Below, one piece after another: positions 2,787 through 11,204 of a stretch of 11,321 bases of DNA. Below the pieces are notes generated by a model that was given only the letters and a program-made list of their open reading frames with translations, was not told the DNA's origin and searched no databases. Source of the stretch: Prosthecobacter sp. (GTDB lineage: Bacteria; Verrucomicrobiota; Verrucomicrobiia; Verrucomicrobiales; Verrucomicrobiaceae); contig JAIWOJ010000023.1 in assembly GCA_020216965.1 (NCBI GenBank), positions 1-11,321 on the forward strand, given 5' to 3'. The position numbers were made by a program, and so were the translations under genes. Every line of letters begins with the position of its first letter. Position 1 is the first letter of the stretch.

Positions 2787-5675
2787 TCACGCCTCGGTGG
2801 TCAGGGGAAAGCGTAGTAGGACTTCCGTGCCACCGGTGGCCGGGCGGCCGAGGAGAAGCTGGCCACGCATTTGCTCGGCAAAGACGGCTAAGATTTTTAA
2901 GCCGAGGCCACCTGAGTGCTCTGTGGGCATGCCGACTCCGTCATCGGTGATCTGGAGTTCGCCGTTGTTGCTAAGAAAGCGCAGAGCGACATGGACGAGA
3001 CCACGGCGTTCATCAGGGAAGGCGTGTTCGAAGCAGTTTGAGAGAGTTTCATTGAGCGTGAGGGCTAGCGGCATGAGCCATTCTTGCTGGACGGGGCCAG
3101 ATTCGATGTCGAACTGCACATTCACACGGCTAGCAGGCACGTCGTAGCATTGGCGTAGCCTGTCTAGCAGGCCGCGGGCAAAGACGATGAAGCTATTGTC
3201 TGCGCCGAGGGCTGTTTGGTAAAGATGCTGATGGAGGTCGGCGATGGCGCGCACACGGTTTTGGCTAGAACGCAGAGCGCTACGGGCGGTGCTATCGCTG
3301 ATGGAGTTAGCCTCTAGATTGAGCAGGCTGGAGATGATCTGTAGGTGGTTTTTGACGCGGTGATGCGTTTCGGTGAGGACGAGTCTCTCTCTGGAAAGAT
3401 CGATTTTCGGTGCGGTCTTGTTGCCCGCGCTGGCGGTAAGGGCTGTCCAGGCGTCTTGTGTTTCCTGCGCGGGCGTGGGGGCCTTTGCAGGCACGCTGGA
3501 GACCTGATGGATGGCGAAATCGTAGCCGCCAGCTCCCAGAGGTTTGGCTTTGATCTGGATCAACTGCCGCGTGCCACTGCCGGAGATGCAGGCGATTTCT
3601 AAAGGCGGCCCATCGGGGTGTGAGGCGAGAGAGGTGAGGTCTGTGTAAAAGCTCGTGGCATCACTAGGCCGGAAATGCAGATGAAGAGGGCGGCCGATGG
3701 CCTGGGACTCATCAAGACCGAGCAACTGGAGGGCGCGCGGAGATAGCTCTTTGATGCGCCCATGGACGTTGGTTTTCAGCAGTAAGTCCGTCTGATGGGT
3801 GCCAGATTTTGTCTGGCGCGGCGCTTCGTTTGGGGCTGGGCTGTTCTTGGGCTCGGGATGCTGCTGGATGAAGCAGACGGTGCTGTGCGGTTGGCCTTCT
3901 GAGTCAAGCACTGGCGCGAGCCGCAGGCTGGCAGGGATGGGTGGTTTGTTTTCCGCAGAAACGATGGAGGCGACCTCCAGTGTCTTGGCGACGGCATGGG
4001 ATGAGAGCGCGGTGGCTGCCATCGCTTCGGCGCTGGAGGCGTCTAGCCAGCTTCTCAGGGGATGCCTGCGCAGCTCGCTCTTTGGCTGGCCGAAGAGCTG
4101 CTCGGCAGCATGGTTGACCTCAAAGACGGAGCCCGTTTTGTCGAGCAAGAGGATGGCTGTGGGGGACTCTTGGAGGATGGTGCGGAATTTGGCCTCGGTG
4201 GCACGCAACTGCTCTTCATGGCGGCATTTTTCGGTGGCATCCTGGATGCAGATGAGCAGCCCTCCGCCGGGGAGGCTGGCAGGTTGAAATTCCAGTTCTT
4301 TGAGCAGGCCGTCTGTGGTGGCTAGGGAGACGCAGCGGGTGAGCTGACGACGCCACACGTCTTCACGCCAGAGCGTGGCGACCTGTTCGCGGTGCTTTTG
4401 CCCCTGACAGGCGGTGGCGAGCCAGTCTTCGATACTCTCTCCCGGCTTGATGGGCTTGCCGAGCAGCCGGGCGAGGGGCTGGTTTTGATACTGCACACTG
4501 CCCATTTCATCCAGCACGAGGACGCCGCAGGGCAGGGCATCTAGACATGCCTGCAAATGCTTGACGTTATCCTGTGCAGCGCGGGCTGCTTCTTGCTGGC
4601 TTTTCAGCTCCTGCCGCGTCCGTGCTAGGTCATCCTGGAGGCGACGGTTTTCGATCGTCTGACCGCTGCTGGCGGAGAGGTCGAGTGCAGCAGGTGGCTG
4701 GGCGATGGAGGCCACTGCGCTGGCGATGGCGGAAAGGTTGGCAGGCGGTCTTGCCAGCGGCGCTGGGGCCATCTGAGCAGGGAGTGCCAGCGCAGTGTAT
4801 CGGGTGCCATCCTCGACCCTTGTGATGAGCCAGGGTGTATCAGCCATGGGCTGCGGGCTTCCCGGCCAGCCTGGCTCTTGGTCTTCTGCCGATGATGGCT
4901 GGAGGAGGACGGAGGCGGGTGCCTCTGGGCTAGCCAGGGTGTGTAGGCAGGCTGTCAATTCATGCCGGATCTGGGCGGACTGAGCTGCGCCGGTGGCAAA
5001 GGCATCCCAAAACGTGGTTTTGCCACTGACCACGCCACGGGATAGGGACATCCTGGCAGCGGCTTGATTCATGCTCAAAATCGTGCCCTGCTCGTCGAGG
5101 AAGACCTGGGGTAGGGCGAGTTCGGTGCTAGCTGGGGAGGTCTCCGGTGTGGTCTTGGCTTGGGGCTCCTGGTCTTCCGCTGGCGCTGATGCCTCGGCTG
5201 CATGGGGCTGCACAAAGCGCTCACAGGTAATCATGAGGCCACCGACGCTGGCGTCAGCCTGGCGCCGCCACGGGCGCACTTCCCAGCGGTAGATGACTCG
5301 GCAATCTTGGCTATCTGCCAGTGCATCGTGCTCGCTGCGGATGACATGGCCTAAGAGTGCTTTTTCATAAACTTGCCGCCAGCCTGGGTGTAAGCTGGGA
5401 AAGACCTCATACTGGCTACGACCGAGGAGGGGTTTGACCTGCTTCAGCCCGAACTCCTCAATCCAGGCACGGTTTGCTAGCAGATAGCGCATCTGGTGGT
5501 CAAACATCGCCATCGCCACCGGCGCATTCTCCACCAGTACGGCTAGGACTTGCTCCATATCCTGCGTGCTGCGGCTCATTTCCTCCGTCGGCTCTTGCGC
5601 ACTTCCCGCGCCAGCGGTGACAGACCCACCTGACTGGCGCGGTTGAATCACGTTTCGGAGGACAGAGGACGACAT
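2787..5675 (-). CDS. Cytoplasmic multi-PAS sensor histidine kinase, HisKA_2 type
   Basis: The 962-residue product has no membrane segment. In order it shows: a low-complexity start (1-35); a PAS domain (about 38-155, NAPVAMAMFDHQMRYLLAN); a degenerate PAS-like segment (about 190-250); a Pro/Ala-rich linker; a coiled coil (about 340-375); PAS (375-480); PAS (490-605, ESPTAILLLDKTGSVFEVN); PAS (628-728); then the kinase. The kinase core is HisKA_2-like: ETHHRVKNHLQII with the likely phospho-acceptor H772, an ATPase N-box E876/N880/H884 in NETLSNCFEHAF, G1 box DDGVGM (911-916) and G2 box GGLGLKI (922-928). All key residues are present, so it should be active, phosphorylating a response regulator that is not in this window. 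PAS domains suggest an internal ligand, redox or light signal; none shows a Cys or His set that names a cofactor. The ATG at 5675 lacks a Shine-Dalgarno site. Met33 (ATG at 5579) directly follows GGAGGA but with very tight spacing, so the start is uncertain. Confidence 0.93.
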   Translation of the reverse strand: MSSSVLRNVIQPRQSGGSVTAGAGSAQEPTEEMSRSTQDMEQVLAVLVENAPVAMAMFDHQMRYLLANRAWIEEFGLKQVKPLLGRSQYEVFPSLHPGWRQVYEKALLGHVIRSEHDALADSQDCRVIYRWEVRPWRRQADASVGGLMITCERFVQPHAAEASAPAEDQEPQAKTTPETSPASTELALPQVFLDEQGTILSMNQAAARMSLSRGVVSGKTTFWDAFATGAAQSAQIRHELTACLHTLASPEAPASVLLQPSSAEDQEPGWPGSPQPMADTPWLITRVEDGTRYTALALPAQMAPAPLARPPANLSAIASAVASIAQPPAALDLSASSGQTIENRRLQDDLARTRQELKSQQEAARAAQDNVKHLQACLDALPCGVLVLDEMGSVQYQNQPLARLLGKPIKPGESIEDWLATACQGQKHREQVATLWREDVWRRQLTRCVSLATTDGLLKELEFQPASLPGGGLLICIQDATEKCRHEEQLRATEAKFRTILQESPTAILLLDKTGSVFEVNHAAEQLFGQPKSELRRHPLRSWLDASSAEAMAATALSSHAVAKTLEVASIVSAENKPPIPASLRLAPVLDSEGQPHSTVCFIQQHPEPKNSPAPNEAPRQTKSGTHQTDLLLKTNVHGRIKELSPRALQLLGLDESQAIGRPLHLHFRPSDATSFYTDLTSLASHPDGPPLEIACISGSGTRQLIQIKAKPLGAGGYDFAIHQVSSVPAKAPTPAQETQDAWTALTASAGNKTAPKIDLSRERLVLTETHHRVKNHLQIISSLLNLEANSISDSTARSALRSSQNRVRAIADLHQHLYQTALGADNSFIVFARGLLDRLRQCYDVPASRVNVQFDIESGPVQQEWLMPLALTLNETLSNCFEHAFPDERRGLVHVALRFLSNNGELQITDDGVGMPTEHSGGLGLKILAVFAEQMRGQLLLGRPATGGTEVLLRFPLTTEA

Positions 5676-7331: not shown

Positions 7332-10300
7332 ATGAAACCAACCTTCCTCTGCTCGGCCCTCATCTGGATTTCCATCACTGCGGCCACGGGCAAAGAGCTC
7401 ACCGGCACCTACTTACCCGCCACCAATGAATGCCCCACGCCCGAGCAGGCGCGGGCGAAAATGACTGTGCCCGAGGGCTACGAGGTCCGCTGCTTCGCGC
7501 ATGAGCCCATGGTGCAAAATCCCGTCGCCATGACCTGGGATCATCGCGGCCGTTTGTGGGTCGTGGAAGCCTACGAATACCCGAATGGCTCCCCGCATCC
7601 CGCCCCTTTCGGCGGCGAGGCCAAAGACGACCAATACCACCCGATGCCCAAAACCGGCGACAAGATCCCTCGCGATCGCGTCATCATCCTCGAAGACACC
7701 GACAACGACGGCACCGCTGACAAGCGCACCGTCTTCGTCGAGGGCCTCAATCTCGCCTCCGCCATCCTTTGCGGCGATGACGGCATCTACGTCGGCCAGC
7801 AGCCGCATTTGATTCACTTCCGCGATGCCGATGGCGATGACCAGCCAGAATCTTGGCGGGTCGTGCTCACCGGATTCGGACGCGAGGACACCCACGAGCT
7901 CCTGAATTCCTTCTGCTGGGGCCCCGATGGCTGGCTCTACATGACGCACGGCGTCTTCACGAACAGCAAAGTCCGTCGCCCAGGTCAGCCGGAGAGTGAA
8001 GGCTTCAAATTTGATGCCGGAATTGGGCGGGCGAGGCCCGTGAGACAGGCACTCCTGTCTGTCCCCTCTGAAAAACAGACAGGAGTGTCTGTTTCACCAC
8101 CCTGGGAATTTGAAGTCTTCGCCGATGGCACCAGCAATCCCTGGGGCTGCGACTACGACGCCGCGGGGAACTTCTTCGTCAGCGCCTGCGTCATTGATCA
8201 CTTCTTCCACATGGCTCCCGGTGGCATCTACGTCCGCCAAGGCGGTGCGCCGGAGAATCCGTATGCCTATGAGCAGCTTCCCAGCATCGTGAAGCACAAG
8301 CATTTCCGCGCCGCGTATGCTGGCGTGCAGATTTATCAAGGCGGACGCTATCCCCAGGACACCTGGGGCCACGCCTTCATCGGCAACATCCACGACAACG
8401 CCATCCACGAGGAAGTGCTCACGCCCGTCGGCGCCACCTTCAAATGCGAGCCGCGTCGCGACTTCCTCCGTGCCAACGACGGCTGGTTCCGCCCCGTGAG
8501 CACTCAAACTGGCCCGGATGGCTTCCTCTGGATCATGGACTGGTGCGACAAGTATCCCTGCTACCAAAACGCCAAAGCCAACCCCGAAGGCGTGGACCGC
8601 CAATACGGCCGCATCTGGCGGGTAGTGCACGAAAGCGACGTTGGAGTGCAGGCTTTAGCCGATTCAAAGACCTCCGCTCCGCCCAGCAATCTCTCCTCGC
8701 CTAAAGGCTCCACTCCAACTCGGCCCTCGAAAGACCTCGACCTCAAAAAGCTCTCCACCGCCGACCTCGTCAAAACGCTGGAACATCCCAACAACTGGAT
8801 GCGTCGCATGGCGAGAAGGATGCTGGTGGAGGAAATCACCAACCTTGACCAGCAATCTTTGAAGAGTTTAGGGCAGCAGCTTTGGAAAAAGGTAAGGTCC
8901 GATAAATTAGCTGAGCAGATGGAAGCTCTCTGGTTGCTACACAGCGTGACCAACTCACGCGGTCCACTATTTAGCCGCAAGGAAGCCGATCTGCTTATTG
9001 ATTCTGGCTCCATACCGGTTCGCAACTGGCTCATACAGTTCATGGCTGAAGGACTCCGCAATGGACAGCGATTAGGCAATTCATTGTCTGGAGGTGGACA
9101 GCACGGATTATTCAGCCCGAGAAACAGCCTTTCGTCTTGGCTTGATGATACAGCGAATGCTTCCACTACAGCAGTTTTAAGCTCCTCTGAATCAGGCGCT
9201 GACGTTCTGGCGCGAATTCGTCGCTTGTTGGCAAATTCGGATGCAAGCACAAGACTCACTACCGCAGTGGCCCTTCGTCAACATGCCGCCATTTCTTTGA
9301 CTGGCCCGAAGCGACTCGGGAGCGTCTTCCCAGACAAGGACATCTTCGACACCTATTTGGCTCTGATCAAAGCCAGCAAAGATGACACGTCTGAAAACAC
9401 CCGGCTCCTATTCTGGACCGGCTTTGAAGCTTTGATGGTCGAAGTGATTGGAAATTGGGAAGCTTACGCCACAGACGGAAAGAGGTCACGTTGTCTTGAA
9501 AGGTTGGCTGAGATGCTCGAACAAGGGCGGCCATTCTCTGATCAAATCGCATACAAGGCATCCCGTCGATTGTGCGAAATGACCGAAGGAAGCATGTCAG
9601 GAGTCCAGTTTGCTTTGCAGCTTGTTGGCTTAATCGAACAAAACCCCGAGCTTTTGAAGCAGGCGTTGCGGGGAATTGTAGATTCTTCCTCCAGTGCAAA
9701 CAGGAAAGATGAGAGTATTGGCGCTCGGTTTTCAAAATGGCGCTCGCACTCAAACGCGGACGTGCGGAAGCATGCCCAGACGCTCGCGGTGCTGTGGGGG
9801 GATGAAGCAGCGGTGAAGGAGATGATCGCGGTGCTGCACGATGGCTCGAGACCGGAGAAGGAGCGCATCACGGTGCTGCAGTCGCTGCAAAAGGTGCGCA
9901 CGAACGCGGTGAAGGACGGTTTGAAGCCGCTGCTCATGCCACAGACCTCCACCGCGCTCGCGGTAGCGGCGATTCGTGCGGCGGCGGACCTCGGGGGCGA
10001 TGAGTTCATCGCGCCGCTGCTTCAGCAGTCGGCATCGAAGGACTTCAACGTGCGCAATGCGGCCATCGAAGCGCTCTCCAATCGCGATGCGTGGACGAAG
10101 GCGCTGCTGAACGCGATTGCCGAGCAAAAGGTCAGTGCAACCGGCTTCCCCGCGCCGGTTCGCCGTGCGTTGGCGACGAGCAAGGATAAGGCAATCCGTG
10201 ATCTCGCCTTCAAGGTGCTAGGCGCATGGCAGGACTCGTCGGACGATGTGAAATCACTCATCGCGCAGAAAAAACAGGCATGTCTCACCGGCGAGCCTGA

Positions 10301-11204
10301 CCTCGCGAACGGCAAACTCATGTTCACGGCCACCTGTGCTGTCTGCCACGAATTTCACGGCGGCGGGCAGAAGGTGGGGCCGGATTTGATCGGCAGCGGA
10401 CGCAGCAATCTCGATGCCTTGCTCGCGAACGTGATCGACCCCAATCAAATCATCGGCAACGGCTACGAAAACATCACGGTGAGCACCAAGGACGGCCGCA
10501 CACTCGCCGGACGCATCGTGGAGGACACGCCAGGGCACGTGAAGCTGCTCGGAGCCGGTGGTGCGGCGCAGATCGTGCCGCGCGATCAAATCGCCACGCT
10601 CACGAATACCAAGCAGAGCCTCATGCCGATGGGCTTCGGCGGTTTGCCTGACGCGGCCTTCCGCGACCTCATTTGGTATATTTTGGCTCCACCGGAAGAA
10701 GGTCCGCTCACGCCGGAAAAGAAGAAACTGCTCATCCAAGGTGTGGAACTGCCGCCAAGCTCCGCTCAGCCGCCCAAGCCTAACTGGCGTGCCATCGACT
10801 GGGAGAGCGTCAGCCTGTGGAATCCCGATTGGAAGGTCAATGCGCCCGATTTTGAGCGCACGCCGGTCAAACTGGCTGAATACCACGGCAAGACGAACGT
10901 GCTGCTCATGCATCCGTTCCCGGATAAGAAGACGCCCGCGAGCTTTGAGCGAAAGCTGAAGGTCGAGAAGACGAAGCTGAGCTTCAGCGTGGCTGCGGAT
11001 GATCGCGGCGATTGGTTGCTCAAGGTTTTGGTCAACGGTCAAGAGGTCAAGACCATGACCGTGGACCATGAAAAGCCACGCTGGAAGACCGTGGAGGTCG
11101 ATCTAGCGAAGTGGAAGGGCCAGGACGTCACGCTAGGCCTGGAGGCGCACGCGAACGGCTGGGCTTGGGAGTTTGCCTACTGGCATGGCATCACGCTGGA
11201 TTGA
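7332..11204 (+). CDS. PVC-type secreted dehydrogenase-like protein with HEAT-like repeats and a CxxCH heme domain
   Basis: The 1290-residue product starts with a signal peptide (about 1-20, MKPTFLCSALIWISITAATG) and should act in the periplasm. Residues 40-435 match the membrane-bound-dehydrogenase-like N-terminal domain of Pirellula/Verrucomicrobium proteins (VPEGYEV, DHRGRLWVVEAYEYP, Asp-rich DTDNDGTAD, SNPWG, GPDGFLWIMDW). Residues about 465-960 are helical and HEAT-like (EHPNNWMRRMARRML, NFNVRNAA-type turns). Residues 985-1125 form the heme-binding domain: CAVCH (C1002, C1005, H1006), GPDL, VIDPN and a downstream M1098/M1100 as possible axial Met. The C-terminal 155 residues look like a beta-sandwich, perhaps carbohydrate-binding. 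The family is thought to pass electrons from an unknown, possibly sugar-type, substrate to the attached heme. Two palindromic inserts (residues about 232-257 and 437-463) and a low-GC stretch (residues about 497-806) are unusual. The reading frame is unbroken. No strong Shine-Dalgarno site is visible. Confidence 0.92.
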   Translation: MKPTFLCSALIWISITAATGKELTGTYLPATNECPTPEQARAKMTVPEGYEVRCFAHEPMVQNPVAMTWDHRGRLWVVEAYEYPNGSPHPAPFGGEAKDDQYHPMPKTGDKIPRDRVIILEDTDNDGTADKRTVFVEGLNLASAILCGDDGIYVGQQPHLIHFRDADGDDQPESWRVVLTGFGREDTHELLNSFCWGPDGWLYMTHGVFTNSKVRRPGQPESEGFKFDAGIGRARPVRQALLSVPSEKQTGVSVSPPWEFEVFADGTSNPWGCDYDAAGNFFVSACVIDHFFHMAPGGIYVRQGGAPENPYAYEQLPSIVKHKHFRAAYAGVQIYQGGRYPQDTWGHAFIGNIHDNAIHEEVLTPVGATFKCEPRRDFLRANDGWFRPVSTQTGPDGFLWIMDWCDKYPCYQNAKANPEGVDRQYGRIWRVVHESDVGVQALADSKTSAPPSNLSSPKGSTPTRPSKDLDLKKLSTADLVKTLEHPNNWMRRMARRMLVEEITNLDQQSLKSLGQQLWKKVRSDKLAEQMEALWLLHSVTNSRGPLFSRKEADLLIDSGSIPVRNWLIQFMAEGLRNGQRLGNSLSGGGQHGLFSPRNSLSSWLDDTANASTTAVLSSSESGADVLARIRRLLANSDASTRLTTAVALRQHAAISLTGPKRLGSVFPDKDIFDTYLALIKASKDDTSENTRLLFWTGFEALMVEVIGNWEAYATDGKRSRCLERLAEMLEQGRPFSDQIAYKASRRLCEMTEGSMSGVQFALQLVGLIEQNPELLKQALRGIVDSSSSANRKDESIGARFSKWRSHSNADVRKHAQTLAVLWGDEAAVKEMIAVLHDGSRPEKERITVLQSLQKVRTNAVKDGLKPLLMPQTSTALAVAAIRAAADLGGDEFIAPLLQQSASKDFNVRNAAIEALSNRDAWTKALLNAIAEQKVSATGFPAPVRRALATSKDKAIRDLAFKVLGAWQDSSDDVKSLIAQKKQACLTGEPDLANGKLMFTATCAVCHEFHGGGQKVGPDLIGSGRSNLDALLANVIDPNQIIGNGYENITVSTKDGRTLAGRIVEDTPGHVKLLGAGGAAQIVPRDQIATLTNTKQSLMPMGFGGLPDAAFRDLIWYILAPPEEGPLTPEKKKLLIQGVELPPSSAQPPKPNWRAIDWESVSLWNPDWKVNAPDFERTPVKLAEYHGKTNVLLMHPFPDKKTPASFERKLKVEKTKLSFSVAADDRGDWLLKVLVNGQEVKTMTVDHEKPRWKTVEVDLAKWKGQDVTLGLEAHANGWAWEFAYWHGITLD
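8040..8097. repeat. Palindromic element 1, in frame inside the PVC-type gene
   Basis: Two 23-base arms (8040-8062 and 8075-8097) are inverted copies matching at 21 of 23 positions, both mismatches being G-T wobbles, around a 12-base loop. Each arm is itself a small palindrome. The right core ACAGACA-GGAG-TGTCTGT (8075-8092) has a 7-bp stem, and the left core ACAGGCA-CTCC-TGTCTGT (8045-8062) has one wobble; their CTCC and GGAG loops are complementary. A further perfect hairpin, CGGGC-GAG-GCCCG (8028-8040), abuts the left side. The element is read as peptide (RQALLSVPSEKQTGVSVS), which separates DAGIGR from WEFEVFADG. Relatives usually run on directly here (of the form AGIWRYHP then EVFA), so it looks inserted. 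Confidence 0.88.
8640..8719. repeat. Palindromic element 2, in frame inside the PVC-type gene
   Basis: The arms 8640-8662 and 8697-8719 are inverted copies matching at 20 of 23 bases, around a 34-base loop. As in element 1, each arm holds its own small palindrome: GGCTTTAGCC (8651-8660) on the left and GCCTAAAGGC (8699-8708) on the right. It is translated as roughly 27 Ser/Pro-rich residues (437-463) between YGRIWRV, the end of the dehydrogenase-like domain, and KDLDLKKLSTADL, the start of the helical repeats. A flexible linker there would tolerate an insert. I recall similar TTGGAGT...TTTAGCC palindromes as dispersed repeats in Planctomycetes and Verrucomicrobia genomes; this needs a search to confirm. 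Confidence 0.85.

Follow-up and report, generated by a model that had tools for sequence, protein, structure and literature searches.

The DNA analyzed here, a stretch of 11,321 nucleotides from a Prosthecobacter sp. (the window), carries two palindromes, P1 and P2, within one long open reading frame. This locus raises the question of whether short palindromic repeats can enter a gene in frame and persist in its protein. A sequence-only reading had proposed such a class of coding insert by analogy with Rickettsia palindromic elements. The reading preferred here, with a probability of roughly 0.78, is that P1 and P2 are REPIN-like repeats that have entered genes, were filtered by reading frame and by the tolerance of loops, and have become peptide segments.

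The host gene and its two palindromes

The window is contig C468 of an assembly of 2.95 Mb in 560 contigs that is 68% complete; genes were called by a codon-usage script of our own. The host gene of P1 and P2 is an intact ORF of 1290 aa at 7332-11204 (+). Its product matched TIGR02604, TIGR02603, DUF7133, HEAT_2 and Cytochrom_C over cut-off (NCBIfam/Pfam), with an N-terminal PVC-type haem-binding domain followed by HEAT repeats and a C-terminal cytochrome c stretch. The N-terminus looks signal-like when judged by eye. Both palindromes, which differ in sequence, are stop-free in the frame of the gene. Thus, the earlier statement that two sequence-distinct palindromes are translated as part of one exported protein was borne out for the reading frame, with export being putative. 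Relatives of the host protein were found mostly in Verrucomicrobiaceae MAGs, besides Prosthecobacter and Brevifollis records, two entries labelled Akkermansia and a few distant ones from Planctomycetes. The features are as follows.

7332..11204, + strand: host gene, PVC-type haem-binding CxxCH protein (ORF; NCBIfam/Pfam matches over cut-off; orthologues aligned)
7656..8630, + strand: best TIGR02604 stretch, residues 109-433, containing P1 and stopping just short of P2
8040..8097, + strand: palindrome P1 (site A), two REP-like units with GTGA feet in inverted orientation, residues 237-256, reading VRQALLSVPSEKQTGVSVS(P)
8040..8062, + strand: left arm of P1, GTGA foot and 7-bp mini-hairpin
8075..8097, - strand: right arm of P1, inverted unit
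8640..8719, + strand: palindrome P2 (site B), inverted unit pair with GGAG close to the outer end, residues 437-463, reading VGVQALADSKTSAPPSNLSSPKGSTP(T)
8640..8662, + strand: left arm of P2, weak 3-bp mini-hairpin
8697..8719, - strand: right arm of P2, weak 3-bp mini-hairpin
10305..10466, + strand: Cytochrom_C stretch, residues 992-1045, downstream of P1 and P2

The 23-nt arms of P1 are 91% complementary and separated by a 12-nt loop, and those of P2, also 23 nt long, are 87% complementary with a 34-nt loop. As single-stranded DNA, P1 was predicted to fold with -20.8 kcal/mol (z -7.0; equalled by 0 of 200 shuffles) and P2 with -14.3 kcal/mol (z -3.7; equalled by 1 of 200), while single P2 arms fold weakly on their own. 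In a sample of 662 kb centred on the host gene itself, 19 in-gene palindromes were counted versus 0 after codon shuffling. Two samples of 400 kb each from two relatives, picked blind to gene context, gave 10 and 6 versus 2 and 3 after shuffling. P1 sits inside the TIGR02604 domain envelope of its host. In an AlphaFold model of residues 22-490, computed with a 38-row alignment (mean pLDDT 49, pTM 0.50), both inserts were predicted mostly as coil, with values below 50, a quality too low for the model to be of use. Elsewhere in the window, a weaker inverted repeat (5310-5488; 22-nt arms, 77%, 135 apart) lies inside a minus-strand ORF (2787-5675), and a search of the window against Rfam gave no match.

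Short and filled loops in orthologous genes

Regions of up to 20 kb around 40 orthologues were compared in an alignment of 41 rows. In these regions, the positions of both P1 and P2 are hypervariable loops, which are short in many species, whereas in others palindromes of at least six types, as distinguished by eye, occupy them in frame. At site A, for which 39 of the 41 rows held data, a 12-residue loop was present in 18, a 6-residue loop in 2 and a longer one in 19. Eleven of the 19 long alleles still give a DNA inverted repeat with a score of at least 9, and the remaining 8 show one arm or none. Judged by eye, those 11 palindromes comprise seven types, with the cores CACTC (P1), CATTC, GGACGCCCTCG, TTCAGCCGTCC, CGGGCATCCTGCCCG, GGCTGCCAG and GGCTTTCCAG. 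At site B, an inverted repeat scoring at least 9 was found in 17 of 41 rows, three of them short with 9-10-bp arms (L097, L099, L104). The types there are that of P2, GTAGTYCCGGCTTCAGCC, GGAGCGCGGACACTCC, GGAGCGCGGACGCCCTCG, the GAACTCCGCG type and the CGGACTTTCCAGTCCG type; further site B alleles are eroded, one-armed copies. At site A of an orthologue with 55% identity (L182, from position 4748 onward), there is a P1-type doublet whose phase is that of the window copy.

The distribution of these states was followed on a quick tree of 38 rows, built without the columns of sites A and B, that leaves nine of its 35 inner branches open and warns of two long branches meeting. It omits L107, L114 and L115, of which L107 and L114 stop short of site A. 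The fewest state changes on this tree, counted without a direction of gain or loss, were 16 at site A and 19 at site B, and filled-versus-short changes alone numbered 9 and 7, respectively.

A P1 doublet on contig C394 sits in a second gene, also long, that matches azurin and TIGR02604 weakly. All 48 genomes of the genus contain a match to it with an E-value of 1e-60 or lower, those in G054 and G057 being distant (34-35% identity). Of 30 aligned rows, 18 have a short loop at its P1 site, TGRDK-like in 15 and different in 3, and 12 have a filled one; eight of the filled alleles are clear palindromes of four types. At another site of the same gene, near residue 435, GTAG..TTTCCAG doublets are present in 9 of the 30 rows. 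The TTTCCAG doublet pattern was found in 7 of 48 genomes, at one place each, all of them orthologues of this gene. Thus, short and filled alleles were found at four sites in two genes.

The insert near residue 435 substitutes host codons, with 16 residues lost and 22 gained. Since host codons are replaced there, this site may be described as an insertion with trimming; inserts can substitute host codons and do not just add to them. This bears on the idea that the host's own codons were spared between the arms, so that the palindrome's loop would be the original protein loop. Spacer peptides such as RKEG do resemble the short site A loop REKEG. However, spacers similar to these, of the AAAGAAGG type, are also seen in unrelated genes that carry P1-family copies, and host codons are replaced at the C394-gene site as well as at the residue-435 site. 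A host origin of the loop is contradicted by both observations and is very improbable.

Another possibility is that each loop received a single old insertion and that other families later took the place of its palindrome through conversion or re-targeting. At the P1 site of the C394 gene, most filled alleles (L203-L209, L218) share the flanks CGG ATT GA.. on the left and CAA/CAG on the right in spite of their different palindromes, and these flanking codons are mostly missing from short alleles. Such common flanks hint at one insertion with later swapping of the palindrome. At site A, the Arg codon before the insert (window 8026-8040) is AGG or AGA in 11 of 17 filled versus 3 of 17 short alleles (p = 0.013, kinship ignored), while gene-wide AGR use is equal in filled and short orthologues. 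Occupancy argues in the other direction: within a close pair with a branch support of 100, L089 is short and L091 filled, and short alleles are scattered across the tree. A single insertion per loop is a tenable but less probable course of events. Repeated filling, or refilling, of the same loops by different REPIN-like families is the reading that we prefer.

Placement and reading frame across the genus

The P1-family pattern was found at 161 places in 30 of the 48 genus genomes, in contrast to 0 for the reversed pattern used as a control. The incomplete genome of the window holds four such doublets. Across the phylum, 4 of 387 genomes matched, 2 of these outside the genus, and no near-exact P1 doublet was found when named genomes were scanned with a pattern. 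In all, 96 copies were collected; L182, L192 and L209 were dropped as they had been found via orthologue searches, and the other 93, from among the matches listed, were viewed in context. Of these 93, 53 are contained entirely in genes, 17 extend across a gene end and 23 lie outside. The in-gene share (57%) is smaller than expected by chance placement at a coding density of about 0.89 (p = 4e-15), which indicates that the P1 family favours gaps and gene ends. For the P2-related family, 21 copies were found in 11 of 48 genomes, with 12 in genes, 8 outside and 1 straddling. Hence, copies of the two families are not confined to intergenic space. The majority of those examined are in genes, while per base the P1 copies are denser outside genes than inside. 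It had also been supposed that all three own P1 doublets lie in genes and use one frame; this was dropped, since the copy on contig C142 straddles a gene end and the doublet on C553 is outside genes.

In the C142 copy (G000, L041:180-260), the doublet contributes the final codons, stop included, of a gene that is pdxA-like as judged by eye and stands just before a D-threonate-kinase-like gene. Nine of the 17 straddling copies share the feature that the TGA of the GTGA foot is the stop codon of the gene (L327, L329, L357, L358, L362, L367, L378, L379, L286), so that the repeat sets the C-terminus in these nine. In another genome (G053, C2:1-400000; L120-L139), many other palindromic repeat types, such as GTTTCAAGTTC.., ACCGCAGAGG.., AATGACGAAT.. 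and TGGAGTGATGG.., were seen between genes and in some cases in coding sequence.

Grouped by host, the in-gene P1-family copies form 32 clusters, which make 35 cluster-by-frame cases. The phases of the left and right arms were (2,1) in 20, (2,0) in 9 and (1,0) in 3 of these, with three others seen once each. The phase that would put the foot TGA in frame was used in none of the 35 (p = 8e-7 versus one third), and the two open left-arm phases were used at a ratio of 30:5 (p = 2e-5). The window P1 uses the minority phase (1,0), as do 5 of the 53 in-gene copies in total. The mean number of open frames out of six was 4.11 for in-gene copies, 4.09 for those outside and 3.59 for straddlers. In-gene copies thus show no special adaptation to openness, and since they are as open as those outside, the frame bias does not arise from stops alone. 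Peptides of the frame in use are the more hydrophilic, with a mean of -0.64 (n = 53), compared with -0.08 for the remaining open frames (n = 165; p = 2.5e-9, with copies that are not independent), and contain about half as much cysteine. A spacer length of 2 mod 3, by which the length of the AGTGA..TCACT unit becomes divisible by three, was found in 37 of 53 in-gene versus 15 of 40 other copies (p = 0.003) and in 23 of the 35 cluster-by-frame cases (p = 0.02).

The P2-related family behaves similarly in that all 12 in-gene copies keep one phase per strand, reading VVPA[SL]AG..PPKGGTT (8) or TVVPPLGG..PAKAGTT (4); the independent cases are fewer than 12, because several are orthologous and five are at site B. 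In the fetched loci, P2 proper is represented by four doublets in three genes, including an orthologous pair, and all four read VGV[QK]A[LS]AD like the window. The P2 pattern gave 0 matches in the own genome, where apart from a 23-nt arm match on contig C253 no further copy was seen. The test for frame bias that the sequence-only reading had called for therefore gave a positive result in both families.

To a lesser degree of probability than a single old insertion per loop, the inserts may be kept because the palindrome itself is functional, as an mRNA hairpin or as a site for protein binding or chromosome organisation, with the peptide just being tolerated; we consider this unlikely. Many in-gene copies have kept complementary arms, which by eye vary less than the spacers between orthologues, and REPs elsewhere are said to act as binding sites (Nunvar et al. 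2010, PMC2817692). Against this, several inserts have lost one arm and yet the loop stays open (L080, L081, L110), and the peptide chemistry of the used frame differs from that of unused open frames.

Whether the host frames are genuine was addressed with 20 proteins from the 32 host clusters, of which 19 contained recognisable Pfam domains. The hosts include a ClpB-like AAA+ protein, a RecD2-like helicase, a serine dehydratase, a B12-binding radical SAM protein, HsdM, a protein kinase, PSCyt/PSD and DUF7133 proteins and FtsX/MacB, among others. Counting only the best stretch per domain, 17 of 20 inserts in 19 hosts lie outside such stretches (10.3 expected from the share of the protein outside them, P = 0.001), 2 inside and 1 at the last residue. 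In an alignment with the solved ClpB structure 4d2q, from E. coli, the insert of the ClpB-like host lies near residue 521, presumably in the coiled-coil middle region, with flanks aligned on both sides. In the RecD2-like host, the insert falls within a gapped stretch of an alignment to 3e1s that continues on both sides, and for the serine dehydratase the structure match stops short of covering the insert. Orthologues from other species keep the inserts in frame. That intergenic repeats or chance palindromes were read in spurious open frames, as suggested by the C142 copy that was first taken as in-gene and ends the pdxA-like gene, is contradicted by these observations for the hosts tested and is the least credible of the alternatives. 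Taken with the 30:5 use of open frames, the domains in 19 of 20 hosts also speak against in-gene copies without frame preference that lie mainly in broken genes.

REPIN-like build and comparison with known systems

Both palindromes consist of two inverted REP-like units around a spacer and are predicted to form hairpins, as REPINs do. The first G of the GTGA foot is present in 187 of 191 P1-family arms, and a foot with its own small palindrome per unit was found in arms of the P1, GTAG and GGAG/CACTC types and, in weak form, in P2 arms. The P1 family is also a genome repeat, with four doublets in the own genome and 161 places in the genus. REPINs, according to Bertels and Rainey 2011 (PMC3116915), occupy extragenic space and are linked to an adjacent RAYT. 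The families described here share with them the inverted pair with spacer, the predicted hairpin, dispersed copies and several families per genome, but differ in that most examined copies of two families (53/93 and 12/21) lie wholly in genes and in that no cognate RAYT was seen among those examined. Genes with a Y1_Tnp domain are present in 47 of 48 genomes, with up to 27 in one. Within up to 1.5 kb of 32 such genes (30 and the two of the own genome), no arms of the P1, P2 or TTTCCAG type were found, and a general palindrome search of 20 further Y1_Tnp regions revealed no such doublets. The mover of the P1 and P2 families is thus inferred. On contig C42 of the own genome (L009:1282-2144), a RAYT-like Y1_Tnp gene is ringed by three GGAG-foot doublets of another family.

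Nunvar et al. 2010 lists a Thioalkalivibrio REP GTAGGTCGGCCTTCAGGCCGAC and a Haemophilus REP GTAGGGTGGGCTTcAGCCCACC; the GTAG..GGCTTYAGCC arms found here resemble these in their GTAG-type foot followed by a small palindrome (PMC2817692). In contrast to the REPs listed there, the P1 foot is GTGA, and there are differences in location and in the RAYT flank. The main text of that source does not contain the term Verrucomicrob.

A different comparison concerns palindromes in genes. Rickettsia palindromic elements, studied by Ogata and colleagues, are reportedly in-frame palindromes in conserved genes that are kept in the protein. The palindromes described here likewise lie in frame in intact genes and are absent from some orthologues; they belong to another phylum and are likened by description, not by sequence. 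To our knowledge, the REP-pair build is absent from the description of the Rickettsia elements. Accordingly, the proposed analogy holds in the sense that the inserts work like these elements, but not as membership of that class, the inverted REP pair being the closer relative. Wolbachia palindromic elements, likewise from another phylum than the repeats studied here, are protein-coding palindromic repeats within intact genes, to which the same likeness by description applies. Because of them, the suggestion of a second, independent case is doubtful, and the present one is at best the third in bacteria, provided that the Wolbachia elements are as described.

In the mechanism proposed, a set of REPIN-like repeats, each with two short units that carry a tetranucleotide foot (GTGA, GTAG or GGAG) and a small hairpin and are inverted around a variable spacer, would enter genes as well as gaps. 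Mobilisation would probably be by transposases of the Y1/RAYT type, which are abundant in the genus. As a pattern, the copies that survive in genes have the stop of the foot out of phase, keep the frame by their length or by later small indels and sit in tolerant linkers and loops, read in a hydrophilic frame; selection may have retained them. The insert would thereby become a segment of the predicted protein, as seen in orthologues of several species, and the distribution shows different families in the same loops, which would have been filled, or refilled, repeatedly. As the sequence-only reading had anticipated, the inserts seem to supply new peptide segments.

With somewhat less assurance than for P1 and P2 themselves, we lean towards the wider view that in Prosthecobacter-like Verrucomicrobia, several REPIN-like families act as a genus-wide generator of protein linkers, which uses one hydrophilic frame and repeatedly fills or refills loops of conserved proteins, including ClpB- and RecD2-like hosts, so that the 'extragenic' palindrome would here be largely coding. 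If true, this would extend the making of protein sequence from short palindromic repeats to a further phylum, where several families in close species offer many copies. It would link two literatures, that on REPINs, described as extragenic, and that on protein-coding palindromes, and insertion, frame filtering and retention would become countable instead of only being inferred.
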